From positions 1 to 14,205 of the forward strand of contig JAUPKV010000285.1 in the NCBI GenBank assembly GCA_030837265.1: a DNA stretch of 14,205 nt, written 5' to 3'. Shown here piece by piece: positions 1 through 14,205 of this stretch (the stretch's first letter is position 1; the number at the start of each line of letters is the position of its first letter). The DNA comes from Methanobacteriota archaeon. GTDB taxonomy: Archaea; Halobacteriota; Methanosarcinia; Methanosarcinales; Methanosarcinaceae. The position numbers and the translations under genes are program-made. Below the pieces are notes generated by a model. That model had not been told where the DNA came from, ran no database searches, and saw only the letters and a program-made list of their open reading frames with translations.

Positions 1-3000
1 CAATCCCCTGCGATCACCACCAAAACCTGTTCCTACACGTTACCTGCATCCGGTAGCAATATCTCCTGGGCGCGGGTCTTTGTAGACGTCTATTCCGGCT
101 CTGGAGATAATAACTGGCCAGTCGGTATTACCACCGAACTCGACCCAACAGGTAGCGGAAGCTGGTCAACTCTTGGTGTTGAGAAAGGGGATATCCAGTC
201 CGAATCGAATACCGCATCACCCGATGGGCAGCCTTATGTCTATCCTGTCAATGATCATATGACCAAAGTCTATTCGGACTACGAGGTATGGTATGATGTA
301 ACCGGCCTGCTCACCTCCACTACCCCGCAGATCCGCGTGACTTCATCCGATATCGGTGCTCCGGTAGGTCCGGACAATAGTTTCGATGGTCGGATCAAAG
401 GAATCACTCTCGTGGTAGCTTACAACGACGGTTCTACCAAACAGGTGAAGTACATCGTGAACCACGGAAACGACTGGATGACCGGAAGCAGTTCTACTGC
501 ATTTGATGCGAGTTCGTTTATTAGTGGATGGACAAATGCAACAATAAAAGAAGTTGCTCATTCGAGCACAGATGCAATCTATACCCTTAATAGCGGTAGC
601 ATTTCGAAGATTTCCTTAGGATCAAGCTCGTACTGGAAATACAATTCCTTCAATGTGACCAGTGCACTTAACCCGGCTGCATTAAACTCTTTTGGGTTCA
701 CGAACAATGGCGCTTCTTTCAAGATCTGTCTAGCAACATTGACAGCCACATATCCCGGAACTACACAAGAGACAGCACCTGTTCCCAATTTCACTGCAAA
801 TACAACCAGTGGAACAGCCCCTCTAATGGTTCAGTTCACAGATAGCTCAACAGGCAATGTGACTTCATACTCTTGGGACTTCGGTGACGGTAATAATTCA
901 ACAAATCAGAGCCCTTCGCATACTTACAGCACAGCTGGCACCTACAATGTGAACCTCACAGTCACTGGACCTGGTGGAAGCAATTCAATGGTAAAGACTG
1001 GATATATTGTTGTCAACAACCCAGCAGCGCCAGTTGCAAGCTTTACTGCAACACCAACTTCCGGTAATACGCCGTTAACTGTTCAGTTTACTGATGCTTC
1101 AACCGGTGCCGTATCTTCATATGTATGGGACTTTAACGGTGATGGAATTGTTGACAATACTACACAGAATCCTTCGTATACTTACAGTTCAGTCGGAACA
1201 TACACTGTCAACTTAACGGTTATCGGACCGGGAGGACGGGATTCTGAAGTTAAGACAAACTACATCACTGTAAATGAAACCGCTGTGTCTGCTCCAGTTG
1301 CCGGTTTTACAGCTACACCTTTAGTAGGCCCAGCTCCTCTCTCGGTTACATTCACTGATCAGTCCACAAATTCACCAAGCTCCTGGAAGTGGGAATACAA
1401 TAACGGTTCAGGCTGGACCCAGTTCTCAACTGATAAGAATGCGACATTCAGTTTCACAACTGCATGCCCATATGATATACGACTCACTTCAACAAACAGT
1501 GGTGGCAGTGATGACGAGACAAAGCTGCACTACATAGCCGTAGCTACTGGCCGCGAGCCACTTACTACTGTCCAGTCAGGTGTTGTTTCCGGTGACCTCT
1601 TTATCAGTTCACCAACGACATACGTAACTGGAGTAACTGAAGTAAGCAAGACGTTTACCCTGCCAGCATCTGCAGCAGGAAATATCCGGTGGGCAAAATT
1701 GTATGTAAACACCTACTCGGGTTCGGCAGCGAACACATATGCTCTTACCTCAACCGTGAAATTAGATGGAAATGGCGACGGGACCTATGAAACCACTCTT
1801 GGAAACGAGACCATGGACATCGCATCCGAAACAAACGGCAATTCCTATCCACTTAACGACCATATAAACAAGGTATACTCCGATTACGAAGCCCAGTATG
1901 ATGTGACTAACCTGATCTCCGCATCAAATCCATCAGTTAATGTAAAAAACCAGGCTATTTCTGGAAAGAGCTTTGAAGGGCGGATCAAGGGAGTTACGCT
2001 CGTTGCTGCATACAATGATCCTTCATCCACGAACCAAACTTACTACTGGGTGAACCATGGCGGCGACTGGTCAAGTCCGGCAAACGGGCAAACAACATTT
2101 AATACCGCAGATCTCGTCAGTGGTTGGGTTAACGCAGAAAGCAAGATCCGCCAATTTTCAAGTTCGGATGCCAACTATACATTCAATGGTATTACAAAAA
2201 TAAATGGAGGATCTACACTCAACTTAGATGGACTGAATACCTGGGATGTTACAAACAATATCACTGCCGGACAGGACAGTACTCTTGCATATTCCAAGGG
2301 CAGTTCATTCAAAACAACACTTGCAACCTTAAAAGTTAAATACGTTACACAAACAGCTCCGGTTGCAAACTTTACTGCAACACCAACCTCTGGAGATTCT
2401 CCGCTTACGGTTCAGTTTACAGATGCTTCAACTGGAACAGTTGCCTCATATGCATGGGATTTTGGTGACGGTAATAATTCAAACAATCAGAACCCTTCAC
2501 ATACTTACAGTGCTGCCAGAACCTACAATATCAGCCTGACTGTCACTGGACCGGGTGGAAACAATTCAATGGTAAAATCCGGTTACATCGTAGTAAACGA
2601 ACCGCTTCCGGAAGCACCTGTAGCCAATTTCACAGCAGCACCTACTTCTGGTAATGCTCCACTGATGGTTCAGTTTACAGATGCGTCAACTGGTACTGTA
2701 TCTTCATATGAATGGGACTTTGGTGATGGCACCAATTCGACCGAACAGACCCCCTCACATATATACAGTACAGCTGGCACCTATAATGTGAACTTCACAG
2801 TCACCGGACCGGGCGGAAGCGATTCCGAAGTAAAGGCCGGGTACATTGTCGTAAATGAAGCATTATCAACAGCACCAATTGCGGCATTTGCAGTAACTCC
2901 AACTTCCGGCGATGTCCCATTAGCTGTCCAGTTCACGGACCAGTCCACAGGTACCCCCACATCCTGGATCTGGGACTTTGGTGATGGTAATAACACAACA

Positions 3001-4641
3001 GGGCAGAATGTCACACACATATACACATCTGCTGGTATCTATATTGCTAATCTGACAGTTAGTAATGCAAACGGTACAAATTCAACATCTGCTTCAATAA
3101 CTGTTACAGAAAAAAACACTCCGATACTTCCTATCGCAAATTTCAGCGCTAACACAAGTGAAGGCTACACTCCTCTGGCTGTTCAATTTACAAACATGTC
3201 AGAAAATGCAGTCTCTTTGATCTGGGATTTTGGAGACGGAATGAATTCAACCGAGCAGAATCCAGTTCATACTTACTCTGAGGCAGGTAACTATACTGTT
3301 AATCTGACAGCAAGCAATGAGAATGGAACGGATTCAAAATTCGCTACTATAAACGTTTTCGAAAAATCTGCTCCAGTACTCCCGCTTGCTAACTTCAGTA
3401 GCAATGTGACTGAGGGTTTTGCTCCCCTTTTCGTTCAATTTACGGATCTTTCAGAAAATGCAACTGTAATTAACTGGTATTTTGGAGATGGAACTAATTC
3501 AACAGAGAAGAACCCACTGCATATTTATAATACATTTGGAAATCATACAGTAAACCTGACTGCAAGCAATGAAAATGGTACAGCCTCAATATCTACTGTG
3601 ATAACTGTTCTAAAACAGCCAGCAGTACTTCCGGTTGCAAATTTCAGTAGCGATGTCACAACTGGTTATACTCCCCTTTCTGTTCAGTTTACAGACATGT
3701 CTAAGGATGCAACTGCATGGAATTGGGACTTTGGAGATGGAGCAAAATCAACCGAGCAGAATTCACCTCATACTTACAATGCAAGCGGAATTTACACAGT
3801 AACGCTTACAGTAAGCAATGAAGCTGGAATAGACAATGAGACAAAAACCGGTTATATAAAAGTAACATCGGCCCCCTCAAAGTTTGCTGCTGCTTTTACT
3901 GTATCCCCAATCTCAGGAAATGCCCCCTTGAAAGTTGTATTTACCGACAAAAGCACGGGATCTCCCAGCTACTGGAAATGGAGTTTTGGAGATGGAACCT
4001 ATTCGACTGCAAGGAACCCTGTGCATACATACAGCAAAGCTGGAAAATATACTATTTCCTTGACAGTAAAGAATGCTAAATACAGTAGTTCGGTAACGAA
4101 GAAATACCTTATAAATGTTACAAATTACGTAAAACCTCCGGTTGCTGCTTTTGCTGCATCCCCTACTTATGGAAACGCTCCCCTTAAGGTAGCATTTACA
4201 GATCGGAGCAAAGGGTCTCCCACCTCCTGGAAATGGAGTTTTGGAGATGGAACTTATTCGACTGACCGAAACCCTGTACATACATACAGCAAAGCTGGAA
4301 AATATACCGTTAGCTTAACAGTGAAAAACAGTGCAGGAAAATGTTCGATAACAGGATTCAATTATATAAAAGTTGCAGCTCCTTTAAAACCTCCTGTTGC
4401 TGCTTTCTATGGATCTCCTACATCAGGAAAAGCACCATTGAAAGTAACTTTTGTTGACAAAAGCTCAGGAAACCCTACTTCATGGAAGTGGAGTTTTGGA
4501 GATGGAACATATTCAACCGCCAGGAACCCTGTACATGCTTACACTAAAGCTGGAAAGTACACTGTTACCTTAACAGCAAAAAATGCCAAGGGCAGTAGCA
4601 CAAAAACAACATATGGGTATATTAAAGTCTCTAAAAAATAA
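1..4641 (+). CDS. Giant surface protein with two DUF3344 modules and twelve PKD domains (5' end outside window)
   Basis: The frame is open from base 1, so the first ATG at 259 is internal and the true start lies upstream; 1546 residues are visible. Bases 1 to about 770 encode a DUF3344 module (NISWARVFVDVYSGSG, then NDHMTKVYSDYE and GRIKGITLVVAYND). Three PKD domains follow (about 775-1545), a second DUF3344 module (about 1560-2355), then nine PKD domains starting near 2356, 2614, 2872, 3127, 3379, 3628, 3883, 4135 and 4390. Most PKD domains show the WDFGDG and HTYS.AGTY.V signatures. PKD 3 lacks the DFGDG loop. PKD 2 carries DFNGDGIVD and the second DUF3344 carries DGNGDGTYE, both resembling calcium-binding loops. 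No C-terminal membrane helix or sorting signal is visible; the protein ends right after PKD 12. PKD domains usually serve extracellular adhesion or spacing, so a surface or matrix protein is inferred. The partner is unknown. Confidence 0.93.
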   Translation, partial: QSPAITTKTCSYTLPASGSNISWARVFVDVYSGSGDNNWPVGITTELDPTGSGSWSTLGVEKGDIQSESNTASPDGQPYVYPVNDHMTKVYSDYEVWYDVTGLLTSTTPQIRVTSSDIGAPVGPDNSFDGRIKGITLVVAYNDGSTKQVKYIVNHGNDWMTGSSSTAFDASSFISGWTNATIKEVAHSSTDAIYTLNSGSISKISLGSSSYWKYNSFNVTSALNPAALNSFGFTNNGASFKICLATLTATYPGTTQETAPVPNFTANTTSGTAPLMVQFTDSSTGNVTSYSWDFGDGNNSTNQSPSHTYSTAGTYNVNLTVTGPGGSNSMVKTGYIVVNNPAAPVASFTATPTSGNTPLTVQFTDASTGAVSSYVWDFNGDGIVDNTTQNPSYTYSSVGTYTVNLTVIGPGGRDSEVKTNYITVNETAVSAPVAGFTATPLVGPAPLSVTFTDQSTNSPSSWKWEYNNGSGWTQFSTDKNATFSFTTACPYDIRLTSTNSGGSDDETKLHYIAVATGREPLTTVQSGVVSGDLFISSPTTYVTGVTEVSKTFTLPASAAGNIRWAKLYVNTYSGSAANTYALTSTVKLDGNGDGTYETTLGNETMDIASETNGNSYPLNDHINKVYSDYEAQYDVTNLISASNPSVNVKNQAISGKSFEGRIKGVTLVAAYNDPSSTNQTYYWVNHGGDWSSPANGQTTFNTADLVSGWVNAESKIRQFSSSDANYTFNGITKINGGSTLNLDGLNTWDVTNNITAGQDSTLAYSKGSSFKTTLATLKVKYVTQTAPVANFTATPTSGDSPLTVQFTDASTGTVASYAWDFGDGNNSNNQNPSHTYSAARTYNISLTVTGPGGNNSMVKSGYIVVNEPLPEAPVANFTAAPTSGNAPLMVQFTDASTGTVSSYEWDFGDGTNSTEQTPSHIYSTAGTYNVNFTVTGPGGSDSEVKAGYIVVNEALSTAPIAAFAVTPTSGDVPLAVQFTDQSTGTPTSWIWDFGDGNNTTGQNVTHIYTSAGIYIANLTVSNANGTNSTSASITVTEKNTPILPIANFSANTSEGYTPLAVQFTNMSENAVSLIWDFGDGMNSTEQNPVHTYSEAGNYTVNLTASNENGTDSKFATINVFEKSAPVLPLANFSSNVTEGFAPLFVQFTDLSENATVINWYFGDGTNSTEKNPLHIYNTFGNHTVNLTASNENGTASISTVITVLKQPAVLPVANFSSDVTTGYTPLSVQFTDMSKDATAWNWDFGDGAKSTEQNSPHTYNASGIYTVTLTVSNEAGIDNETKTGYIKVTSAPSKFAAAFTVSPISGNAPLKVVFTDKSTGSPSYWKWSFGDGTYSTARNPVHTYSKAGKYTISLTVKNAKYSSSVTKKYLINVTNYVKPPVAAFAASPTYGNAPLKVAFTDRSKGSPTSWKWSFGDGTYSTDRNPVHTYSKAGKYTVSLTVKNSAGKCSITGFNYIKVAAPLKPPVAAFYGSPTSGKAPLKVTFVDKSSGNPTSWKWSFGDGTYSTARNPVHAYTKAGKYTVTLTAKNAKGSSTKTTYGYIKVSKK
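3883..4638 (+). repeat. Three tandem lysine-rich PKD repeats, 255-bp period
   Basis: The last three PKD domains share near-identical DNA around the codons for WKWSFGDGTYST and the following NPVHTYSKAGKYT. The TGG codon opening this block lies at 3973, 4228 and 4483, exactly 255 bp (85 residues) apart. These domains use Lys where the preceding nine mostly carry Asp, Glu or Asn, so this part of the protein has a strongly basic charge. Recent tandem duplication or gene conversion is the likely origin. Confidence 0.85.
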
Positions 4642-4694
4642 ATGAAAGTTTAATTTAAAAAAGACTGAAAATATCAAGCCCAATGTTACTGGAG

Positions 4695-4802
4695 GAGCTA
4701 TTGTAAATCAGACGAAGGTCAGATTCATCCTGTTGAATGAATTGAAGCCATCTGGTTTTTGATTTTAATAGCTCATTCTACAATTTTTATAATTAGTTTT
4801 TT
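4695..4802 (+). terminator. Probable transcription termination region of the giant PKD gene
   Basis: Three oligo-T tracts (4756-4760, 4784-4788 and 4797-4802) follow the gene on the coding strand, the usual signal for archaeal RNA polymerase termination. An 8-bp inverted repeat, GAGCTATT at 4695-4702 and AATAGCTC at 4767-4774, spans the same stretch. Its loop is long, so the T-tracts are the stronger evidence. Confidence 0.4.
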
Positions 4803-4836
4803 CAAGAATAAATCTTGACCATATCTTCTACGAAGA

Positions 4837-4881
4837 AATAATCAAATTTTTAACTTGATTGTATAGACAAGTTTGATTATT
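4837..4881. repeat. Two-part inverted repeat
   Basis: Outer arms AATAATCA (4837-4844) and TGATTATT (4874-4881) and inner arms AACTTG (4852-4857) and CAAGTT (4868-4873) pair perfectly. A 7-nt bulge sits on the left side only and the loop is 10 nt. It lies about 60 bp upstream of the first TATA-like box of the next operon, so it may be a regulator site or an RNA hairpin. No function is shown. Confidence 0.5.
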
Positions 4882-4943
4882 TAAAACAAACTAAATACAA
4901 TAATCTTTTTTTAAAAGTAGTTAACATTAATTAGAAAAATTGA

Positions 4944-5000
4944 TATATAAATACCATATAAAGTATGAAAAATTACAAAATTTGTTAGAATATATTATAA
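4944..5000 (+). promoter_or_regulatory. TATA-like promoter elements for the 5103-8077 operon
   Basis: Two candidate archaeal TATA boxes are present: TATATAAATA at 4944-4953 and TATATTATAA at 4991-5000. With the usual spacing of about 25 bp, transcription would start near 4975 or 5023 and leave an untranslated leader of roughly 130 or 80 nt. The region is so AT-rich that chance matches are likely, so which box is used cannot be decided from sequence. Confidence 0.35.
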
Positions 5001-5102
5001 CTAAAAATAAAAATAAACAATTAAAAATTGTGAAAAAATAAACGTTAGTTAAGTTAAGAGTTACCAGGACAAAAACCTTGAATTGAAAACGGGAGAACAA
5101 AT

Positions 5103-6890
5103 ATGCTTTCAAAATGTAGGAAATTAAGCAGATCATTTATATGTATCTCAGGTATCTTGATTTTTTTTATATATGTTTCCCCATGCCTGGCAACTTATAA
5201 TTCAGAAGGTACCCCTGAACAAGATAAATTGATTGAAATTACATCAGGTACTGTAAAAGGCGGACTTTACGTCGATGGAGGGGAAGGGATTAAGCAGACC
5301 CCTTATGTCCAGGAATTCAATATTCCGGGAGATTCAATGAAATGGGCCCGGGTTTATGTAGGAGTTTGGGGTGGTAATGAAGAAAAAACCGGGACTTTGG
5401 ACCTCATTGTCAATGGAAAAGATTTCGGAAGCGTGGATCTGAAAGGCAAAGCAGATACAGGGGACGATGAAGTTCAGAATCCTTCCATTTATTGCACGGG
5501 GCATGGCGTATACTGGGTTGCTTATGATATGAGCACGAACATAAGCACAGGACCGGTAAAAGTGGAAGCCAGAACCGAAGGGGATATTGATGGCAGAGTC
5601 TATGGGATTGTCCTCGCAGCCGTATATGAAGATAAAGAGGGGAAGGAAACAAAGTATTGGGTCGAAGAAGGAAACATGAACCTACACGGCACAGGGTGGA
5701 GTGGAGGTTTGTCATCTACCCATGACGAGGGAAATGCGTACTTTTCTGGAGATCTGGATACAGATAAATATAAGACTGCAAAACTGGATGTAGCTTATTT
5801 ATGTGGAACTCCCGGGCTTGAAGACTCTCTCTATTTTAACGAAGAACAACTTTCGGATGGGGACAATAAGAATGACATAGCTAGTTCGAAAGAATATTTT
5901 GATTTGAAAAACTTCGATGTACTGGACTTTCTTACCAAAGATGACAACAAAGTCAAGTTCCAAAGAGATGATGAAGACTATGTGCATCCTGTACTGGCTG
6001 CTCTTACTTTAGGAACGGGAGAAGCTGGCAGTTCTTCAGATCTGTTAATCTCTGGACTCACTTTACCTGTGCTTTACGCTGGAAAAGACAACACAATAAG
6101 GGCAAATATTGAGAATATAGGACAAGATTCAGCAAATGGATTCCAGGCAGCACTCTCTGCCGATGATGAAATAGTATCTACTGCTTCCATATCTTCTCTT
6201 GCAAGTGGAAAAAGTAAAACTGTAAATTTTAACTGGAAGCCTGCCGGTGACGGAGTAAAGGCTTTAAAAGTATATACTGACTACACGAACAAAGTAAAAG
6301 AAACAAATGAAGTAAACAACTGGAATACAGCTGTTTTTGTAAATATTATAGATTTGACTCCTCCTAAATTAGAAATAAAGTCACCTGAAGATGGGAGCTT
6401 TTCAGATGCTGGAAATATTACTGTCAGCGGAACTGTTGAGGACACAAGTAGAAACCTGACAGTTGACGTGAACGGTGAGAAAGCCATTCTTTCGGGTGGT
6501 ACCTGGAGTGCAAATGCTTCTTTGGTTTCATCCGGTCCCAATGTAATCTCCGTTTACGCTGTAGATGGAGCAAATAACACTGCAAAGGAACTCGTTGTTG
6601 TAAACAGAAGAGGTTCTTTTCAGCATGATTACAATAAATCCATGTCTGAAAAAAAGGAAATAGTTGTTGAAGACTTGCAAAATAGTAAAGATGCCTTTAT
6701 ACAAAATTTAAATTATACTTTTATACAAAATACTAAAGATAAGTTTATACAGAACATTAAAGATAAGTTTCAGAGTTCATTGAATAAAGAGGTTAAAACA
6801 CACGCAGGTTCCTCTAAATTTTGCATAATTGCAGGGCTTATTTCCGCTGTTTTGCTTCTTAAGTTTCGAAACAGGGGGAAGCAGCTATGA
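5103..6890 (+). CDS. Membrane-anchored DUF3344/CARDB/Ig-like surface protein
   Basis: The 595-residue protein starts with a signal peptide or anchor (hydrophobic 11-30). A DUF3344 module spans about 44-305 (GGLYVDGGEG, MKWARVYVGVWGG, GRVYGIVLAAVYED), the same module found twice in the upstream giant protein. A CARDB-like domain follows at about 310-413 (NIENIGQDSANGF, VKETNEVNNWN), then an Ig-like domain of the glucodextranase type at about 419-502 (PPKLEIKSPEDGS, NVISVYAVDGANNTA). Residues 526-560 hold an 8-residue FIQN repeat, and a C-terminal membrane helix at about 572-587 is followed by a basic tail, so the protein should be anchored with its domains outside the cell. The start has a GGGAG ribosome binding site at 5091-5095. 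The gene overlaps the next one by ATGA, indicating an operon. The ligand is unknown; adhesion or cell-envelope structure is inferred. Confidence 0.9.
   Translation: MLSKCRKLSRSFICISGILIFFIYVSPCLATYNSEGTPEQDKLIEITSGTVKGGLYVDGGEGIKQTPYVQEFNIPGDSMKWARVYVGVWGGNEEKTGTLDLIVNGKDFGSVDLKGKADTGDDEVQNPSIYCTGHGVYWVAYDMSTNISTGPVKVEARTEGDIDGRVYGIVLAAVYEDKEGKETKYWVEEGNMNLHGTGWSGGLSSTHDEGNAYFSGDLDTDKYKTAKLDVAYLCGTPGLEDSLYFNEEQLSDGDNKNDIASSKEYFDLKNFDVLDFLTKDDNKVKFQRDDEDYVHPVLAALTLGTGEAGSSSDLLISGLTLPVLYAGKDNTIRANIENIGQDSANGFQAALSADDEIVSTASISSLASGKSKTVNFNWKPAGDGVKALKVYTDYTNKVKETNEVNNWNTAVFVNIIDLTPPKLEIKSPEDGSFSDAGNITVSGTVEDTSRNLTVDVNGEKAILSGGTWSANASLVSSGPNVISVYAVDGANNTAKELVVVNRRGSFQHDYNKSMSEKKEIVVEDLQNSKDAFIQNLNYTFIQNTKDKFIQNIKDKFQSSLNKEVKTHAGSSKFCIIAGLISAVLLLKFRNRGKQL
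6696..6767 (+). repeat. In-frame 24-bp tandem repeat encoding FIQN octapeptides
   Basis: Three imperfect 24-bp units (6696, 6720 and 6744) encode FIQNLNYT, FIQNTKDK and FIQNIKDK, and a partial unit FQSS follows. They sit between the Ig-like domain and the C-terminal membrane helix. The pattern of one Phe-Ile pair every eight residues among polar and charged residues suggests a stalk or oligomerising segment next to the membrane. Confidence 0.75.
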
Positions 6891-8077
6891 ATAAAAGCAG
6901 TCACTTCTACATAATTATGGTTTTTTTAATTGTCTCTTACATGCTTATAGGCATCATGCCTGCAGCAGCAAATGAAGACGACTGGAACAACCTGACCGTC
7001 ACCCTCGGAACCGAAAATTCAGTAGTCTCTGTAAACGGCTATACTCTGGAAGCACTGAAATTTGACGGTTATGGTATGGTATGGCTTCAAGTCTCGAAAA
7101 ACGGTGCGACTCTTGGGGATGCAGTCCTGGAAAATAATAGTTCAAGCTGGTGCTACATGGACAGCGACAACATACGGCTTAAGGCATGCAATGTCACTGA
7201 TAGGAGAAGCCTTCCTATGTTCTCTAATCTCTGTTCGCCAGAAGCAGAGGTTGTTTTCGAAACAAAAAAGCCTGCATCAGATAACATGAGCCTGGATCTT
7301 GATTTGGAAGCAGACAAAGACGAGTACTTGCTTGGAGATGAGGTAATTGTTGATACTCAGATTAGAAACACGGGGGAAGTGGTAGCAGACAAAATAAAAT
7401 TTGATTTGAATCCCGATGGGCTTCTTGTTCAAAATGAAGTCCCTGAAAATTTGGCTCTTGAGAAAGGCTCCAAAAACTCCTTTGAACTCCACTTCAGGTT
7501 TCCGGAGAATATAAAAGAAGATTATAATATAACTGCAAATGTGAGCTGGGAGGACAACTCAGGTAAGCATTTCCTTTCCGAAATTGTTGAAATTAAAGTT
7601 AGCAAACCCCTGGAAATCTACAAGAATACAGTATCAGATGTTTTTTTGGGAAGTCCTGCATATGTTACAGTTTCTGTAAAAAACGTCCAGGACAGGCCTG
7701 TAAACGTCTCATTAATCGACCTGTTGCCGGAAACATTTGCATTAACGAACAACTCAGACTCAAACTCCAGTTTTTTTAATTTGAATAATCCATCCTATTT
7801 GAACCAGAGATTTATACTGTCCCCGGAAGAAATGAAGACATTTTCTTACTCTATTATATCCGAACAACTCGGAGCACATAGGGTACCCCAAACACATGCA
7901 TATGCAAATTTATGCGGGCAGATGTATAATGAGAGTGCGGACTCCGAAAATATAATCACGGTATATGAAAATATGTCATATAAAGAATACAAAAATGATA
8001 CATCCATAGAAACTATACCTCCTGAAACTATACCTCCTGCAGAAGTAAAATTGCATGTTAATGTAGCTACTACATAA
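6887..8077 (+). CDS. Secreted protein with S-layer-like N-terminal module and COG1361-type domains
   Basis: The 396-residue protein has a signal peptide (hydrophobic 8-27, likely cleavage after AAA). The N-terminal part (about 33-105; GYTLEALKFDG, VWLQVSKNGATL) resembles the repeat unit of Methanosarcina S-layer proteins (S-layer family duplication domain). Residues about 135-238 and 245-360 look like two Ig-like domains of the COG1361 or NEW3 sort (LLGDEVIVDTQIRNTGEV, AYVTVSVKNVQDRPVNV). The C-terminus has a short ETIPP repeat and stops without a membrane helix. The start overlaps the stop of the upstream anchored protein (ATGA) and has a G-rich ribosome binding site, so the two are probably co-translated and may act as a surface pair. 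Cys 89, 101, 116 and 343 could form disulfides. The S-layer similarity is judged by eye; the precise role is unknown. Confidence 0.85.
   Translation: MNKSSHFYIIMVFLIVSYMLIGIMPAAANEDDWNNLTVTLGTENSVVSVNGYTLEALKFDGYGMVWLQVSKNGATLGDAVLENNSSSWCYMDSDNIRLKACNVTDRRSLPMFSNLCSPEAEVVFETKKPASDNMSLDLDLEADKDEYLLGDEVIVDTQIRNTGEVVADKIKFDLNPDGLLVQNEVPENLALEKGSKNSFELHFRFPENIKEDYNITANVSWEDNSGKHFLSEIVEIKVSKPLEIYKNTVSDVFLGSPAYVTVSVKNVQDRPVNVSLIDLLPETFALTNNSDSNSSFFNLNNPSYLNQRFILSPEEMKTFSYSIISEQLGAHRVPQTHAYANLCGQMYNESADSENIITVYENMSYKEYKNDTSIETIPPETIPPAEVKLHVNVATT
8009..8038 (+). repeat. Perfect 15-bp tandem duplication near the end of the S-layer-like gene
   Basis: The unit GAAACTATACCTCCT occurs twice in direct succession (8009-8023 and 8024-8038), coding ETIPP twice. 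A multiple of three keeps the frame, so slippage could change copy number without breaking the gene. It forms a short proline-rich linker at the C-terminus. Confidence 0.85.
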
Positions 8078-8751: not shown

Positions 8752-10905
8752 ATGTATATATTAAAAAAACCTGGTATTTATTTACTGTTGGCTTTTTTTT
8801 TATTGCCGGGAATTGCGGGTGCGTCCGGGCAGGATTCTATTAATGATTTAATAAAAAATGGTGGGAATGTTAATCTTTCTGGGACATATACATTAACGGG
8901 TCCAATTATGTTATCTTCCGATTTGAAACTTAACGGCCAAAATTTGACCACAATAACGATACCTGATAATGCTAATTGGTCAGTCTGGGTTCCTCTCATA
9001 AAAGGAGTAGGATTGCACGATGTTACGTTGGAAGGAATTGAGTTTAACGTTAACTCCGATGGCAATGACGAGACTCCGCACGGGCGAGGTTATTACAATT
9101 GTATTCATTTAATAAATTGTACAAATGTAACTGTAAAAAATTGTATATTCCATGATGGTAAAGGCGATGGATTAAGGACAAAATACTGTAAGAATGTTCA
9201 ATTTTACAATAATATAGCTTATAAACTAGGACATGATTGTTTTTATGCAATCGATTCCGAAAATATTTGGGCATGGAATAATACTTTGACAACCAGGACA
9301 AACTCGGGACTCCGAATCTGGAATTCTAAAAACGTTCAATTCTTCTGTAACCGGATAAATGCACAGCTTGACAGTTTAGGGGGAAATCCTGGCATACAGA
9401 TAGAAGACTCAAAAGGCACGATGGACGATGTCAGAGTGTTCGCAAATGATATTTATAAAACGTGGGGACCTGGCATCTGGCTGATTTCATACGATACAGG
9501 CTCAGAAAATTCTCAAAACATCACGGTTGATCACAATCTTATATTAAAAGATGGTGTTTCATACAATATTGAATATACTGCAGGCATCACAATTGATGGA
9601 GTAAAAGGCACAAACATAAGTAATAACGTTTTTGATGGCTGTAATAACGCTGGAGTTCTTGTACTGGATGGTGAAAGTAACACTGTTATTAAAAACAATA
9701 TCATAACTAACACCAACGAACACGCCGCAATATCTCAAACCGGTACTGGATATGGGGTTAATAATAGGCAAGAAGCCCCGATTTCTATCTTAAATAATTG
9801 TTTCTTCAATAATGTCAATGGAAACGTCTTTGGAGCAGACTCTACAGGAAATGACCTGCAAGATCCTACTAATCATAATACGTCTTCTGATTGGGTTTGG
9901 AAGGACAATGCATGGTCATGTGATTATTTAAGAGAAATGGAAAATTACGTGAATGAGAATTCGACTTTTTTCAATGAGATTTTTGATAACGAAACTATTA
10001 ATGAAGGTGCAGACAATGCAAATGATAATGATTTACATGAAATAACTTATGTCTATAAAAACAATACTTGTCAATTGAAAAACATAACGGGTAATTTGAC
10101 TGATAGTAATAGTGAGTATGAAACCATGTGTTCAGAGTTTAATAATACTCAATTAGTATTGAAGGTTATAGATAACTCTCAATCTGAAACTGACTCCGAG
10201 AATAACTCAAGTGATGGAACCTCGTCAGTTAAGTCTCAAACTCAAAATGTAAGTTCTTATCAGCTGGCGTCGAACAACTCAAGTGGCGGAACAACAACTG
10301 AACTTAATCAGACGGTCACATCAGTTTCCACACCTATCCTACCTGTATCCGTATTTATAACTAATCCTATAAACTGTAGTGGGAATGTTCCGCTTATAGT
10401 TGATTTTCACAGCACTGCGCTTAATGCAAGCACAATAAAATGGGACTTTGGCGATACAGTAAACAATAGTGCAACCGGAACAGATGTTTCACACACCTAT
10501 TCTGCCAATGGAACCTATACTGTGATTCAAACAGTTATAAATTCAAATGGCACACTTACTTCAGAAGCTCAGATAAATGTAAATTCTATTACTGCACCCT
10601 CTGTAGCTGACTTCATAGCAACGCCCATAAATGGTAAAGCACCTTTTAGAGTTAACTTTACAGATAAGTCTCAGTATACTGCTGCACCTGGATCTGTAGT
10701 GATTTATAATTTCGGTGAAGGTGAAGGCACAAGCAGCGAGAGAAATACTTCCCATATCTATATGATTCCTGGAACTTATTATGCTACTCAAGCCGTAACA
10801 AATTCTGAAAATCCTGCAGGAGTCAATACAAAAACAGTTATTATAACCGTTGGAGAGTCAAATGTTTCTCTTGTATCAAATTTCAACGGTAACAGTACAA
10901 GTTGA
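8752..10905 (+). CDS. Secreted right-handed beta-helix (NosD-like) protein with two PKD domains, C-terminally truncated
   Basis: The 717-residue product has a signal peptide (hydrophobic 9-22, then GASG). Residues about 35-365 form a right-handed parallel beta-helix, seen as repeated short strands with Asn ladders (CTNVTVKNCIFHDG, SKNVQFFCNRINA, GTNISNNVFDGCNNAGVLV, NTVIKNNIITN), as in NosD/CASH and polysaccharide lyase or epimerase families. Residues about 400-525 are a Ser/Thr/Asn/Glu-rich linker with many N-glycosylation-type sites. Two PKD domains follow (about 530-612 with WDFGD and HTYSANGTYTV; about 616-701 with an altered YNFGEGEGT loop). Residues 706-717 look like the start of a third PKD, cut by TGA. 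The start has GAGGT at 8741-8745, 6 nt before ATG. The beta-helix suggests binding or modifying a surface polysaccharide; catalytic residues are not evident, so an enzyme activity is not claimed. Confidence 0.88.
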   Translation: MYILKKPGIYLLLAFFLLPGIAGASGQDSINDLIKNGGNVNLSGTYTLTGPIMLSSDLKLNGQNLTTITIPDNANWSVWVPLIKGVGLHDVTLEGIEFNVNSDGNDETPHGRGYYNCIHLINCTNVTVKNCIFHDGKGDGLRTKYCKNVQFYNNIAYKLGHDCFYAIDSENIWAWNNTLTTRTNSGLRIWNSKNVQFFCNRINAQLDSLGGNPGIQIEDSKGTMDDVRVFANDIYKTWGPGIWLISYDTGSENSQNITVDHNLILKDGVSYNIEYTAGITIDGVKGTNISNNVFDGCNNAGVLVLDGESNTVIKNNIITNTNEHAAISQTGTGYGVNNRQEAPISILNNCFFNNVNGNVFGADSTGNDLQDPTNHNTSSDWVWKDNAWSCDYLREMENYVNENSTFFNEIFDNETINEGADNANDNDLHEITYVYKNNTCQLKNITGNLTDSNSEYETMCSEFNNTQLVLKVIDNSQSETDSENNSSDGTSSVKSQTQNVSSYQLASNNSSGGTTTELNQTVTSVSTPILPVSVFITNPINCSGNVPLIVDFHSTALNASTIKWDFGDTVNNSATGTDVSHTYSANGTYTVIQTVINSNGTLTSEAQINVNSITAPSVADFIATPINGKAPFRVNFTDKSQYTAAPGSVVIYNFGEGEGTSSERNTSHIYMIPGTYYATQAVTNSENPAGVNTKTVIITVGESNVSLVSNFNGNSTS

Positions 10906-11163: not shown

Positions 11164-11679
11164 TCATCTTCTGATATTTACCATTAATCTTTTTTTAGTT
11201 ATGGGAATCAATTTTTTCCACTCCACCACCACATCTTCGCAAAAAACATATTCATCCACTGTTTTATCCGAGAATTTCCCGTCTACTTCATATACATAAA
11301 ACCCCTCTTCCCCATCCGTAGAGACGACTTTGACCCGATTTCCCATTTTAGTCACCTCTACGGCAGCCACACTTTTAAGGGCTTCAAGAAGGGTTGTACC
11401 CTTTTCGACTTCAAGTTTCCTGTTTTCTGCGAAATGATCCAGAAAAGAAAAGACGTTGTTCAGTTTTATGCCTATCATATGGGTATTTCCGACCTTTTTC
11501 CGCTCTACAAGCTCGGCTTTTTCCAGGATTTTGATATGTTTAGCCGCTACGGGCACAGAAATCCCAATTTCCCTGGCAAGGCCAGAGATATGCTTATCCC
11601 CTTCGTTCAGGCTTTCCAGAATGGATAGGCGGGTATTACTTGAAATTGCTTTGAAAAGGTTTTCTCCACTGCCGTTCAT
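11164..11679 (-). CDS. ArsR-family transcriptional regulator with a DUF4430-like sensor domain
   Basis: The 171-residue protein begins with an ArsR-type winged helix-turn-helix (about 6-72): LFKAISSNTRLSILESL, then GLAREIGISVPVAAKHIKIL with the recognition helix at about 41-55, then the wing. The usual ArsR metal box (ELCVC) is absent and there is only one Cys (147), so it is not a classic arsenic or cadmium sensor. Residues about 89-157 resemble DUF4430: VEKGTTLLEALKSV at the start, a GFYVYEVDG strand pair in the middle and EDVVVEW at the end. DUF4430 also covers the C-terminal domain of the vertebrate cobalamin carriers, so a corrinoid-like ligand is a possibility, not a conclusion. The start has GAGGA 8 nt upstream. 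It is divergent from the DUF2162/ExbB/DUF2149 operon across a 316-bp gap with palindromes, and is the natural candidate to regulate it and itself. Confidence 0.88.
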   Translation of the reverse strand: MNGSGENLFKAISSNTRLSILESLNEGDKHISGLAREIGISVPVAAKHIKILEKAELVERKKVGNTHMIGIKLNNVFSFLDHFAENRKLEVEKGTTLLEALKSVAAVEVTKMGNRVKVVSTDGEEGFYVYEVDGKFSDKTVDEYVFCEDVVVEWKKLIPITKKRLMVNIRR

Positions 11680-11709
11680 TCATGGGTTCCTCATAACACT
11701 TACTAGCAT
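11680..11709 (-). CDS. Possible nine-codon leader peptide abutting the regulator start
   Basis: On the minus strand an ATG at 11709 with a strong AAAAAGGAG ribosome binding site opens a 9-codon frame (MLVSVMRNP) ending in TGA at 11682-11680, immediately followed in the same frame by the regulator ATG. It could be a leader peptide that couples translation, or the old start of a longer regulator later interrupted by TGA. The regulator has its own GAGGA site within this frame. Confidence 0.35.
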   Translation of the reverse strand: MLVSVMRNP

Positions 11710-11734
11710 GATAATCTCCTTTTTATCTCAAATG

Positions 11735-11742
11735 CTTATAAG
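11735..11742 (-). promoter_or_regulatory. TATA box of the ArsR/DUF4430 regulator gene
   Basis: CTTATAAG lies 56-63 bp upstream of the regulator ATG. With the usual 25-bp spacing, transcription would start near 11710, right at the short leader frame. The motif is itself palindromic. Confidence 0.45.
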
Positions 11743-11859
11743 TATTTCCCTACATAAAACAAGTAAAGTATATTATTCCTTTATTTAATTGCTTTTTCTA
11801 TTTTCAATTTCATCAAATTTACTTTAATTCTATTATTTGCTTTCCGAAAAAGATCTTCT

Positions 11860-11871
11860 CATTTGCAAATG
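11860..11871. promoter_or_regulatory. 12-bp perfect palindrome, candidate operator
   Basis: CATTTGCAAATG reads the same on both strands and lies about midway between the divergent genes. A dimeric winged-helix regulator of the ArsR type typically binds such a site, so this is a candidate operator for the adjacent regulator. Confidence 0.45.
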
Positions 11872-11918
11872 GCAATGAAAACTTAATCCCTTGTTAAAAA
11901 GTGTAATCAATTGACATT

Positions 11919-11951
11919 ATTACCCAAAATGATAACGGATATTACCCAAAA
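11919..11951 (+). promoter_or_regulatory. Two 11-bp direct repeats 22 bp apart upstream of the ExbB-type operon
   Basis: ATTACCCAAAA occurs at 11919-11929 and again at 11941-11951, identical over 11 bp. The start-to-start distance of 22 bp is about two DNA helical turns, so two bound proteins would sit on the same face. The pair lies 45-77 bp upstream of the DUF2162 start, suitable for an activator or repressor of this operon. Confidence 0.5.
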
Positions 11952-11995
11952 ACTAACTTTTATTTATTTCTACTATAGATGCTCAGAAGGTATAT

Positions 11996-12688
11996 ATGGA
12001 TTCTACTGCATGGACTGTTATCGGTATTTTGATAGGTATCCTTATTTTTGGGATTAAAACCGGATTAGGTTGTGGATTTTCGAACATTACTAAGCGAGAA
12101 ATTTTAGCAATTGGAGCCAGTTATTTTTTTCTGGCGCTTTTATTCGGGAGCATTGCTGATCGCGTAAGCTTTGACGCTTTTGAGAGACTTTCTTCCCTGG
12201 GTATGGAAGTTCATGTGCTTCTCTCCCTGCTTCTTATCGGGGCTGGTATTTACACCCAGAAAAAGTGGAATTTAGGAAAGGATGTTTCCAGACACACTTT
12301 CATGGTTTTATCCATGCCCTGCCCGGTCTGCCTCGGGGCACTTGCCCTGTCCTGTATGCTGCTTTCTGCAAATGTCCACCTTTCCGGGATAAAAATTGGG
12401 CTCCTTGTAGGATTTGCTTTTTTTACATCCATTATAGTATCTTCTTTTCTTTTCAGGTTGGGAAAGATAAAGATGGAAAAGACTCCCGAAACCCTTGGAA
12501 GCGCAATGATGATGCTCGGAATTTTCTATTTGTTAGGAGCAATACTCATCCCGGCATACATGCAGACAAAACAAATGAACTTTGTCTCGACAGGCAGTGA
12601 AGAGACAGCAATAGTTCCGCTTCTGATTTGTGGGTTCATTGCACTTGCTGGCTTTCTGCTGGAAAATCTGAGGAGAGCTGATCGATGA
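11996..12688 (+). CDS. DUF2162 polytopic membrane protein (putative transporter)
   Basis: The 230-residue protein is almost entirely membrane helices (about 6-24, 36-54, 70-86, 103-124, 131-154, 168-188 and 205-223), fitting six or seven spans. It matches what I recall of DUF2162, a family of predicted archaeal transporters that I believe belongs to the LysE superfamily. Noteworthy residues are GLGCGF (Cys26) near the end of helix 1 and a CPVC motif (109-112) plus Cys120 in helix 4, an arrangement that recalls CcdA/DsbD-type thiol carriers of the same superfamily or a metal path. The start has AGAAGG at 11985-11990. Its TGA overlaps the ATG of the ExbB-type gene (ATGA at 12685), so the two are translationally coupled. 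Substrate unknown; metal, corrinoid or electrons are possible. Confidence 0.85.
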   Translation: MDSTAWTVIGILIGILIFGIKTGLGCGFSNITKREILAIGASYFFLALLFGSIADRVSFDAFERLSSLGMEVHVLLSLLLIGAGIYTQKKWNLGKDVSRHTFMVLSMPCPVCLGALALSCMLLSANVHLSGIKIGLLVGFAFFTSIIVSSFLFRLGKIKMEKTPETLGSAMMMLGIFYLLGAILIPAYMQTKQMNFVSTGSEETAIVPLLICGFIALAGFLLENLRRADR

Positions 12689-13314
12689 GCTTAACAAGTT
12701 TATTGTCCGGGATGATGAATATCATTTCCTCGTCCCTGTTGACTCCGGTATTGATAGTCCTGGCTATTCTTGTGCTTTTTTCGTTAATGCAGTTAGGAGA
12801 ATTCCTTTCCGAATATACAAAAAGACACAGGGACTGGAACAGCCTGGAAACAAATTGTAAACAAATCCAGGATGACCTCCAAAACTCGGACTTCTCTAAA
12901 GCTTCCCGAATTCTTGAAAATATAAAACAAAACTATATGGTTACTTCCTTTGCAAAAGACGCTGCAAAGTATCTTGAAGGGAAGCAAATTTCTGCCATCG
13001 GAAAGCTCCCTCTGGAGTATGAAATCAAGATGGCGAAACGGCTTGAAATTTCAAAAATAATATCTACAATCGGCCCCATGCTCGGGCTCATGGCAACCCT
13101 GATCCCTCTGGGTCCTGCTCTGCTATTTCTTACCCAGGGAGACATCCAATCCCTTGCAGAACACCTGAGAATCGCTTTCGCAGCGACAGTTGTCGGGCTT
13201 TTTGCAGCCACATTCGGTTACGTGTTTACACAGGTCCGAAGGCGCTGGTATATGGAAGATATGTCGGATATCGATTACATTCTGGATACGATTGAAGAAA
13301 AAATTCCGGGATAA
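12685..13314 (+). CDS. MotA/TolQ/ExbB-family proton channel protein
   Basis: The 209-residue protein has the three-helix layout of ExbB and TolQ: helix 1 at about 17-38, a cytoplasmic, partly helical stretch (about 40-120), then the conserved block with helix 2 (about 125-149; ISTIGPMLGLMATLIPLGPAL) and helix 3 (about 163-184; IAFAATVVGLFAATFGYVFT) followed by a basic RRRW. Known relatives form a pentameric ring around an ExbD, TolR or MotB dimer and use the proton gradient to do mechanical work. The partner here is probably the DUF2149 protein encoded 29 bp downstream. Bacterial versions energise an outer-membrane receptor or cell-wall task; an archaeon lacks the outer membrane, so the target must differ. 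The start overlaps the DUF2162 stop. Confidence 0.92.
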   Translation: MSLTSLLSGMMNIISSSLLTPVLIVLAILVLFSLMQLGEFLSEYTKRHRDWNSLETNCKQIQDDLQNSDFSKASRILENIKQNYMVTSFAKDAAKYLEGKQISAIGKLPLEYEIKMAKRLEISKIISTIGPMLGLMATLIPLGPALLFLTQGDIQSLAEHLRIAFAATVVGLFAATFGYVFTQVRRRWYMEDMSDIDYILDTIEEKIPG

Positions 13315-13343
13315 CCGGATTCCCGGACAAGGAGAATAAAAAC

Positions 13344-13835
13344 ATGCGAAAATCCAGAAAATATAGAAGACATAGCTTATTAGATGATTCGGATGACCAT
13401 AACCCAATGAGCGGAGTTATCAATATATTTGATGTAGCAATAGTTCTGGTCATGGCTCTTATGGTTGTGCTTGCTATGTCTCCTCATATGCCCAATGTCT
13501 TGAAATTAGGTGAAAATACCACAATTGTGAGAAATCCCGGTTCCCAGAATATGCAGATTGTCGTCAAGGAAGAAGGAAAACCCATCGAAGTCCTGAACAT
13601 GACCGATAAAATCGGCGGAGGTACCGGGGAAGTTCTGGGGACGGCGTACAGGCTTGCCGACGGCAGGGTAATCTATGTGCCTGATACTGCTAAAGACAAT
13701 GGTACATCTTCATCAGGTACATCTGCCTCTTCAAGCACATCTGCTTCATCAAGTGCATCTTCTTCCTCAGGTACACCTGCTTCACCGGGACAATCCGGTA
13801 CACCCAAAACTATTAAAGCAACGGCTTCAGAATAA
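13344..13835 (+). CDS. DUF2149 protein, probable ExbD/TolR-like partner
   Basis: The 163-residue protein has a basic and acidic cytoplasmic N-terminus, one membrane helix (about 26-45, INIFDVAIVLVMALMVVLAM) and an outer domain (about 55-117), then a Ser/Thr/Ala/Pro-rich tail (about 118-163). The pattern INIFD followed by a hydrophobic helix is very like ExbD and TolR, where an Asp at the start of the helix carries protons; here that is Asp30. Length and topology also fit ExbD, apart from the tail. It lies 29 bp after the ExbB-type gene with an AGGAG site before its ATG, so it is the third gene of the operon. The family is DUF2149; the ExbD role is my inference from topology, motif and context. 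The flexible tail could reach through the S-layer or be glycosylated. Confidence 0.85.
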   Translation: MRKSRKYRRHSLLDDSDDHNPMSGVINIFDVAIVLVMALMVVLAMSPHMPNVLKLGENTTIVRNPGSQNMQIVVKEEGKPIEVLNMTDKIGGGTGEVLGTAYRLADGRVIYVPDTAKDNGTSSSGTSASSSTSASSSASSSSGTPASPGQSGTPKTIKATASE

Positions 13836-13941: not shown

Positions 13942-14088
13942 TTAAGCTCCCCCAGTTTCCGGGAAAAAGCTAATAAGAACCCTCGGGAAATTGGGTTTTG
14001 TTCTTATCAGGCAGAAGGGTAGCCATGTAATTTTACAAAGAGAATCGAACCTGATCACTGTTCCAGACACAACTGGTAATTTAGACAT
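13942..14088 (-). pseudogene. hicA: Decayed hicA toxin gene remnant
   Basis: The ATG at 14088 overlaps the end of hicB and opens with MSKLPVVSGT, the usual beginning of HicA mRNA-interferase toxins (MSKLPVVSG.EVIKAL). After residue 10 the 48-residue frame no longer resembles HicA: the helix region and the RQ.GSH active-site segment are missing. A fragment that may correspond to that segment (SGSILFVKLHGYPSA) lies in another frame just after, suggesting a deletion plus frameshift. An 8-bp inverted repeat (ATAAGAAC at 13973-13980, GTTCTTAT at 14000-14007) sits inside. The toxin is most likely inactive. Confidence 0.65.
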
Positions 14089-14205
14089 GGGAAACTTCCA
14101 CTAAGGTCAGATAAGGTTTAGAAACTTGTTGTGGAAGGTCTTCAGTCCCAAAGCTCTCGATGTACAGTTCAATAGCTTCTTTAATATTCTTTTCAGCTTC
14201 TTCAA
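14081..14205 (-). CDS. hicB: HicB-family antitoxin, C-terminal part (5' end outside window)
   Basis: Forty residues are visible up to the TAA at 14083-14081; the start is beyond the right edge. The segment EEAEKNIKEAIELYIESFG matches the conserved helix of HicB antitoxins (EAL.NI.EAIELYLE), followed by a short C-terminal stretch with PYLTLVEV. HicB normally binds and neutralises HicA and represses its own operon. The gene order is hicB then hicA with a short overlap. With HicA apparently broken, this would be an orphan antitoxin. Confidence 0.78.
   Translation of the reverse strand, partial: EEAEKNIKEAIELYIESFGTEDLPQQVSKPYLTLVEVSHV

Follow-up and report, generated by a model that had tools for sequence, protein, structure and literature searches.

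A DUF2162-ExbB-DUF2149 operon of Methanosarcinaceae: probable motor and permease genes of an Hmu-like surface chelatase system

Introduction

What does a proton-driven motor of the ExbB type work on in an archaeon? The question is raised by a gene cluster at 11164..13835 of contig JAUPKV010000285.1 (assembly GCA_030837265.1, Methanosarcinaceae), a stretch of 14,205 nt that was analysed whole and is called the window below. A gene for an ArsR-type winged-helix regulator with a DUF4430-like C-terminal domain (REG; 11164..11679, minus strand, 171 aa; Pfam HTH_5, 39.5 bits) is divergent from a tight operon on the plus strand. The operon encodes a polytopic DUF2162 membrane protein with a PCPVC motif, a probable NicO-like permease (11996..12688; Pfam, 228.2 bits), a MotA/TolQ/ExbB-family proton channel subunit (12685..13314; Pfam MotA_ExbB, PF01618, 36.7 bits against a cut-off of 22.9) and a DUF2149 protein (13344..13835; Pfam, 102.8 bits). 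The DUF2162 and ExbB genes are joined by an ATGA overlap. Coordinates and Pfam matches confirmed these four genes and their arrangement, which had been proposed from the letters of the DNA alone (the sequence-only reading).

The operon probably supplies motor and permease, and so one half, of a chelatase or de-chelatase system that resembles Hmu, is anchored at the cell surface and would be cobalt- or corrinoid-responsive and proton-energised; this reading is held with some reserve. On the best reading, the novelty is an archaeal form of such a system that has a regulator, a permease and a probable substrate of its own. No description of an archaeal CobN-ExbB-DUF2149 operon was found in the open-access literature searched. 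An EMBO J paper, in the part bearing on archaea, states that full hmu operons are absent from them and that it is unclear what the homologues they do have are for (PMC12583661). From the present analysis, archaea have the motor half of the hmu system.

The operon and its linked CobN in archaea

One genome per species was scanned for DUF2162; of the 111 loci confirmed, the best 80 were taken as the wider set (by title mostly Methanosarcinales and anaerobic methanotrophic (ANME) archaea, a few only 'Euryarchaeota'). DUF2162 was followed by ExbB in 78 of the 80 loci, and DUF2149 came next in 74; the remaining 6 loci end inside the operon. Within the class, 150 of 237 genomes had DUF2149.

Sixty-four loci included DUF2149 and extended 1 kb or more past it. 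A gene for the giant chelatase CobN was located 3′ on the same strand in 46 of these, mostly within 0.5 kb. The sequence-only reading had tentatively placed CobN-like chelatase genes near related clusters, and was correct in this. The same reading had seen no described target for the motor; this no longer holds, as the linked CobN and the bacterial hmuSTUV counterpart provide a concrete candidate load. It had also stated that the window shows no CobN, which is the case; the window reaches only 370 bp past DUF2149. Since the DUF2149-CobN gap is 2.5 to 7.7 kb in four Methanosarcina loci (L005, L007, L009 and L010), the lack of a CobN within 370 bp means nothing. A CobN is expected in the source genome.

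Alternatively, the motor could drive some other surface process, for example S-layer-associated transport, with CobN as an independent neighbour. This would suit the 18 of 64 loci in which CobN is not downstream, as well as the window, and the activity of purified HmuS, the CobN-type protein of Bacteroidota (PMC12583661). It is made distinctly improbable by several observations. Two of the 18 loci (L020 and L079) carry CobN upstream, and the other 16 belong to 15 genomes, in every one of which PF02514 gave a match, of whatever CobN type. The linkage is shared by archaea with Bacteroidota, Geobacterales and Alphaproteobacteria, with CobN on either side of the ExbB-DUF2149 pair. Finally, a second operator-like site, described below, lies 5′ of an anchored CobN gene in genome G015.

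Anchored and soluble CobN

CobN proteins were compared in a set of 60 sequences: 49 archaeal (from the neighbourhood of the operon or from arrays of CobN genes), 6 bacterial and 5 soluble. Thirty-nine of the archaeal sequences were long open reading frames (ORFs) chosen near the operon loci, as a subset, and 10 further ones were added to make 49. A strong hydrophobic segment at the C-terminus, usually with basic residues after it, was found in 48/49 archaeal CobNs, the exception (L057) ending at a contig edge. An N-terminal hydrophobic, signal-like segment was likewise found in 48/49 at a threshold of 1.6 (L020 scores 1.35). All 6 bacterial CobNs have both segments; neither is present in the 5 soluble sequences, one from Halorussus and four from Methanosarcina-type genomes. 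A tree of 41 of the 60 sequences parted anchored from soluble CobN with a Shimodaira-Hasegawa-like approximate likelihood ratio test (SH-aLRT) value of 100. A_L008, which has no GTHG motif, was among the sequences left out. Because of long branches in three rows, nothing but the anchored/soluble split was taken from the tree.

The archaeal proteins share with the class I chelatases CobNST and ChlHID the CobN/ChlH family and the catalytic His. Those enzymes are soluble and have AAA+ and VWA subunits, whereas the operon-linked archaeal CobNs are anchored. Methanosarcina-type genomes also encode a soluble CobN, distinct from the anchored one, and a TIGR02442 partner for it: in a sample of 16 genomes (REG at least 83% identical; four named Methanosarcina), 15 had a high-scoring CobN of soluble size together with a full-length TIGR02442 AAA+/VWA protein. 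The remaining genome, G015, has neither of the two, yet gave 6 PF02514 matches; five of these proteins are complete and all five end in a hydrophobic anchor. Anchored CobN is therefore independent of the TIGR02442 ATPase partner.

Three further observations were made on CobN genes. The soluble CobNs of Methanosarcina-type genomes (L243, L244, L245 and L252) have a CCC triplet at the Leu-Asp-His position of HmuS, and may thus be no ordinary cobaltochelatases. Genome G082 (5.8 Mb; L242, L248, L249 and L253) gave 12 PF02514 and three DUF2149 matches, and one of its CobN genes (G082:C1:5460684-5463953) contains in-frame stop codons. An anchored CobN-like ORF without the GTHG motif (L008:12201-16541) is possibly an altered or divergent copy.

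Counterparts in bacteria

In Bacteroidota, the hmu genes are ordered hmuY-hmuR-hmuS (CobN)-hmuT-hmuU (ExbB)-hmuV (DUF2149) (PMC10434189), and HmuS is a de-chelatase that acts on heme; its structure has been solved (PMC12583661). The hmu order was seen in plasmid records of Prevotella, Bacteroides and Aureibacter, the last with HmuY after the receptor. The ExbB and DUF2149 proteins of the window are thus counterparts of HmuU and HmuV. The Hmu system and the archaeal loci with a linked CobN both have a CobN-type chelatase with a hydrophobic N-terminus, a C-terminal anchor and the GTHG His, and in both ExbB precedes DUF2149. They differ in that the archaeal loci show no HmuY or HmuR, that DUF2162 stands in place of HmuT, that CobN is 3′ of the pair in archaea whereas hmuS is 5′, that two His residues of HmuS (His1209 and His254) are mostly missing from the archaeal proteins, and that the archaeal regulator family occurs near cobalt and corrinoid genes.

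The closest arrangement was found on plasmid pGLOV01 of Trichlorobacter (Geobacter) lovleyi SZ. Its genes follow the identical DUF2162-ExbB-DUF2149-CobN order after a TonB receptor gene, beside cobalamin genes (cobT, BzaF and cobyric acid synthase), and its CobN also has the LDNDD motif. Differences are the Gram-negative host, the TonB receptors, a separate standard ExbB-ExbD-TonB set on the same plasmid, and the lack of an annotated REG-like regulator in the 16.5 kb shown. In its account of the plasmid (as pSZ77), a 2012 paper notes a CobN without a CobS/CobT partner and gives its role as not known (PMC3403914).

Two other bacteria carry CobN-ExbB-DUF2149 in a different setting. In Runella it lies inside a cluster for [NiFe]-hydrogenase maturation and is preceded by a protein annotated as 'urease accessory protein', which gave below-cut-off matches to DsbD_2 and NicO. 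In Azospirillum the distance to nikR is about 7 kb, an interval that holds an iron-type ABC transporter and a TonB receptor. Ten plasmid records had an ExbB match, and CobN and DUF2149 were beside ExbB in 6/6 of the annotated ones examined. From the Bacteroidota, Trichlorobacter, Runella and Azospirillum clusters, CobN, ExbB and DUF2149 form the constant core and the adjoining membrane protein varies.

The ExbB-DUF2149 motor

The profile of the archaeal ExbB family matched the ExbB, TolQ and MotA structures in the PDB (best E 7.9e-6). The Thr of its GLM(G/A)TL stretch was invariant in 18/18 rows and aligns with a Thr of ExbB. DUF2149 has a single transmembrane (TM) helix, at residues 23-45 of the structural model, whose N-terminal part carries an acidic residue as in an ExbD/TolR-like stator partner; an extracytoplasmic C-terminal part follows. 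This residue, Asp30, was present in 36/36 archaeal rows; with bacteria included, 19 of 20 rows had Asp and the remaining one Glu. It resembles the Asp of ExbD. The ExbB/ExbD-like motor that the sequence-only reading had proposed for an archaeon was thereby supported.

ExbB-type helices with a conserved Thr and a single-TM partner with a conserved acidic residue are common to the archaeal pair and to the ExbBD, TolQR and MotAB stators. The archaeal partner differs in being DUF2149, not ExbD by sequence; its operon contains no TonB, Pal or flagellum, and a chelatase is its probable load. An outer membrane is lacking in Methanosarcina, and Trichlorobacter has a second, standard ExbB-ExbD-TonB set; ExbB-DUF2149 therefore need not serve TonB. 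The load would be CobN itself or the handling of its ligand.

The CobN active site and heme

The best PDB match of the CobN at L001 was HmuS (9d26, 455.7 bits), followed by CobN (408.4 bits) and ChlH (381.7 bits). The catalytic His538 of HmuS, in the GTHG motif, is kept in 38/39 archaeal CobNs; its loss in HmuS abolishes heme conversion (PMC12583661). These results would suit heme and iron acquisition as in Bacteroidota, in which a surface CobN strips heme of its iron and the motor aids uptake. Proteomic data on M. barkeri may point the same way: two CobN-like BtuS proteins, of whichever type, were up with Fe(II)/Cys and FeS2 compared with Fe(II)/HS-, and re-use of heme iron was suggested (PMC10846266).

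The other HmuS residues compared are mostly not kept. His1209 of HmuS (LSLDH, the second ligand) is Asp in 37/39 archaeal CobNs, and in 45/49 when the 10 added archaeal sequences are included; Asp is also found there in the Trichlorobacter, Runella and Halorussus CobNs. His254 (HGR, at the heme site) is His in only 5/39. As the HmuS-specific His is mostly Asp, heme is not the obvious substrate. The REG family, moreover, lies near cobalt or corrinoid genes in 21 of 40 loci (see below), and heme acquisition is considered quite unlikely. Prevotella HmuS has a Met-rich insertion of 119 aa (23 Met) where at least 90% of the archaeal rows show a gap, but this is no firm test, since HmuS of Bacteroides finegoldii itself has just 14 residues there. 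Judged by aligned residues, archaeal CobN is HmuS-like in architecture but departs from the HmuS family at His1209 and His254.

DUF2162 and nickel

The PCPVC motif was invariant in 8/8 aligned DUF2162 rows, Trichlorobacter included. In an alignment with NicO (hhalign probability 58.9%), PCPVC was paired with PCPAA. The best guess is a metal permease distantly like NicO; a CcdA/DsbD-like electron carrier is a possible alternative, and would suit a reductive de-chelation. HmuT was tried as a homologue of DUF2162 and discarded: three HmuT sequences gave an hhalign probability of 0.1% and no DUF2162 match.

The resemblance of DUF2162 to NicO also brings in nickel, which the machine could recycle from F430 or other chelates for methanogenesis. 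The hydrogenase cluster of Runella, the nikR gene near the Azospirillum cluster and the large nickel demand of methanogens agree with this. By contrast, the neighbours of the archaeal REG family indicate corrinoid genes (CbiZ, CbiD/E), although CbiMNQO and NicO could carry nickel, and no nickel gene was recognised, by eye only, at the operon in the listed Methanosarcina loci. A nickel system is considered unlikely.

Regulator and probable operator

The preferred reading, a cobalt- or corrinoid-responsive system, draws on the REG family. REG homologues were present in 103/111 genomes of the taxonomic family. Forty more REG loci (L141-L180) were taken from matches away from the operon (L171 has a DUF2162 gene 2.4 kb off) and screened for CbiZ, CbiM, CbiN, CbiQ, CbiD, CbiE, NicO and CobN. 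As controls, 40 stretches were picked arbitrarily in 21 genomes of this taxonomic family, of which 17 genomes also contributed REG loci. A gene of this panel was found in 21/40 REG loci and in 2/40 controls (CobN in both); the Fisher p of 3e-6 is too small, since part of the REG loci are orthologues of one another and some also supplied the panel genes. Pfam confirmed CbiZ, CbiM, CbiQ, CbiN, CbiD, NicO, a tetrapyrrole methylase and FecCD near REG homologues; CbiN-CbiQ-NicO and CbiD/E genes also adjoin them. The link to cobalt and corrinoids made by the sequence-only reading was sustained by these neighbours.

Its DUF4430-like domain was supported across the family, with matches at E<=0.05 in 24 of 30 members (best 1.5e-6), and is weak in the window protein itself (18.2 bits, below the cut-off of 23.8). 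Precomputed Pfam data list DUF4430 in 5/120 REG homologues. Transcobalamin-type proteins carry DUF4430 as their C-terminal domain (PMC4350170). In a fold search with the REG model (mean predicted local distance difference test (pLDDT) score 74), the 50 matches listed align via the winged-helix half, and two longer alignments have a root-mean-square deviation near 12.

The linkage of REG with the operon, also part of that reading, held in close relatives and was mostly absent from the wider set. Among the 30 best-matching genomes, 29 have REG divergent from DUF2162 and within 1 kb of it; the exception, L108, has no DUF2162 within its 2.9-kb locus. REG is divergent and adjacent in only 23/80 loci of the wider set (L001-L017, L019, L047, L056, L057, L060 and L069), so that adjacency is the exception outside Methanosarcina and a few others. 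In L054, REG is 2.4 kb off in the opposite strand order. Outside Methanosarcina (L143-L160 and L179), REG homologues are often in a conserved cluster with radical-SAM/HHH, DUF4130 and MutS-like genes.

A probable operator with the half-sites TTAYCC, GRTAAC and TTAYCC (11920..11947, plus strand) is conserved in 17 aligned promoters (L013 was left out). Directly 3′ of it, a TATA-like box of the operon was read from the sequence (11958..11969, plus strand). Operator and TATA-like box are the best conserved stretch of the intergenic region: column agreement was 0.79-0.90 across the operator and 0.84-0.96 between the operator and the start codon, compared with 0.38-0.72 at 11756-11915 and 0.58-0.78 closer to REG. 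The strict form of the operator occurred exactly once in 13 of the 16 genomes (reversed control, 0). By coordinates, 12 of the 13 sites are between REG and the operon; the thirteenth, in G015, is about 0.36 kb 5′ of an anchored CobN gene. The window and L001 have ATTACC as the first half-site and hence miss the strict pattern.

Proposed mechanism and significance

The following mechanism is proposed. REG would bind the single predicted operator over the operon promoter, its DUF4430-like domain sensing the corrinoid or cobalt state. The anchored CobN, which has a probable signal peptide and is encoded just 3′ in most relatives, would stand outside the membrane, where it may bind a metallo-tetrapyrrole or related chelate and remove (less likely insert) the metal. 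The ExbB-like channel and DUF2149 would turn proton flow into a movement that acts on CobN or on the loading or release of its ligand. DUF2162 might handle the freed metal or electrons.

Several results weigh against this proposal. Among the 7 matches of a PDB sequence search with DUF2149 at E<=10, none was to ExbD or TolR, and the C-terminal part of its model is poorly predicted (mean pLDDT 54), only the TM helix being confident. No homology of DUF2162 to HmuT was detectable. The second and heme-site His of HmuS are mostly replaced. CobN is missing downstream in more than a quarter of the loci and is not visible in the window. REG is mostly not adjacent to the operon in the wider set. The 40 REG loci overlap with the source of the panel and are partly orthologous; a panel gene is absent from 19 of them, and a radical-SAM neighbour is close to REG in 18, mostly with DUF4130 and MutS-like genes. 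Finally, purified HmuS converts heme to protoporphyrin with NADH (PMC12583661), and the motor is thus not required for the de-chelation chemistry.

A bolder version is possible but doubtful. The ExbB-DUF2149 stator might work the surface CobN directly, replacing the AAA+ ATPases of cytosolic CobN/ChlH, and so permit archaea that lack an outer membrane to remove metal from corrinoids or F430 in the extracellular space, where there is no ATP. In the published model, HmuU and HmuV power the outer-membrane receptor HmuR (PMC12583661). If the stator drives CobN, HmuUV of Bacteroidota would be the motor of HmuS, and not of the TonB receptor HmuR. An ExbB-DUF2149-CobN linkage without an outer membrane calls the published model into question. 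Methanosarcina methanogens are genetically manipulable, and the question becomes testable because the operon provides the motor half, permease, regulator and operator-like site in such organisms. Metal salvage from tetrapyrroles would matter to cobalt- and nickel-hungry methanogens and ANME archaea.

Other features of the window

Large surface-protein genes with DUF3344/PKD and CARDB domains occupy 259-8077. These 5′ genes were considered as operon partners and rejected, as they show no linkage elsewhere. Among loci L001-L180, homologues of 5103-6890 or 6887-8077 were not found at E<=1e-5; 259-4641 matched other surface proteins (26 ORFs, the window's own included). Methanosarcina loci with listed genes carry different genes 5′ of REG (fibrillarin-like by eye), so that this flank of the window looks rearranged. 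No Rfam family reached its gathering cut-off in the window. A disaggregatase-related beta-helix protein with PKD domains is encoded at 8752-10905 (Pfam Disaggr_assoc, 91.7 bits). At the window edge, 14084-14203 (minus strand) holds the end of an antisense frame that is HicB-like by eye.

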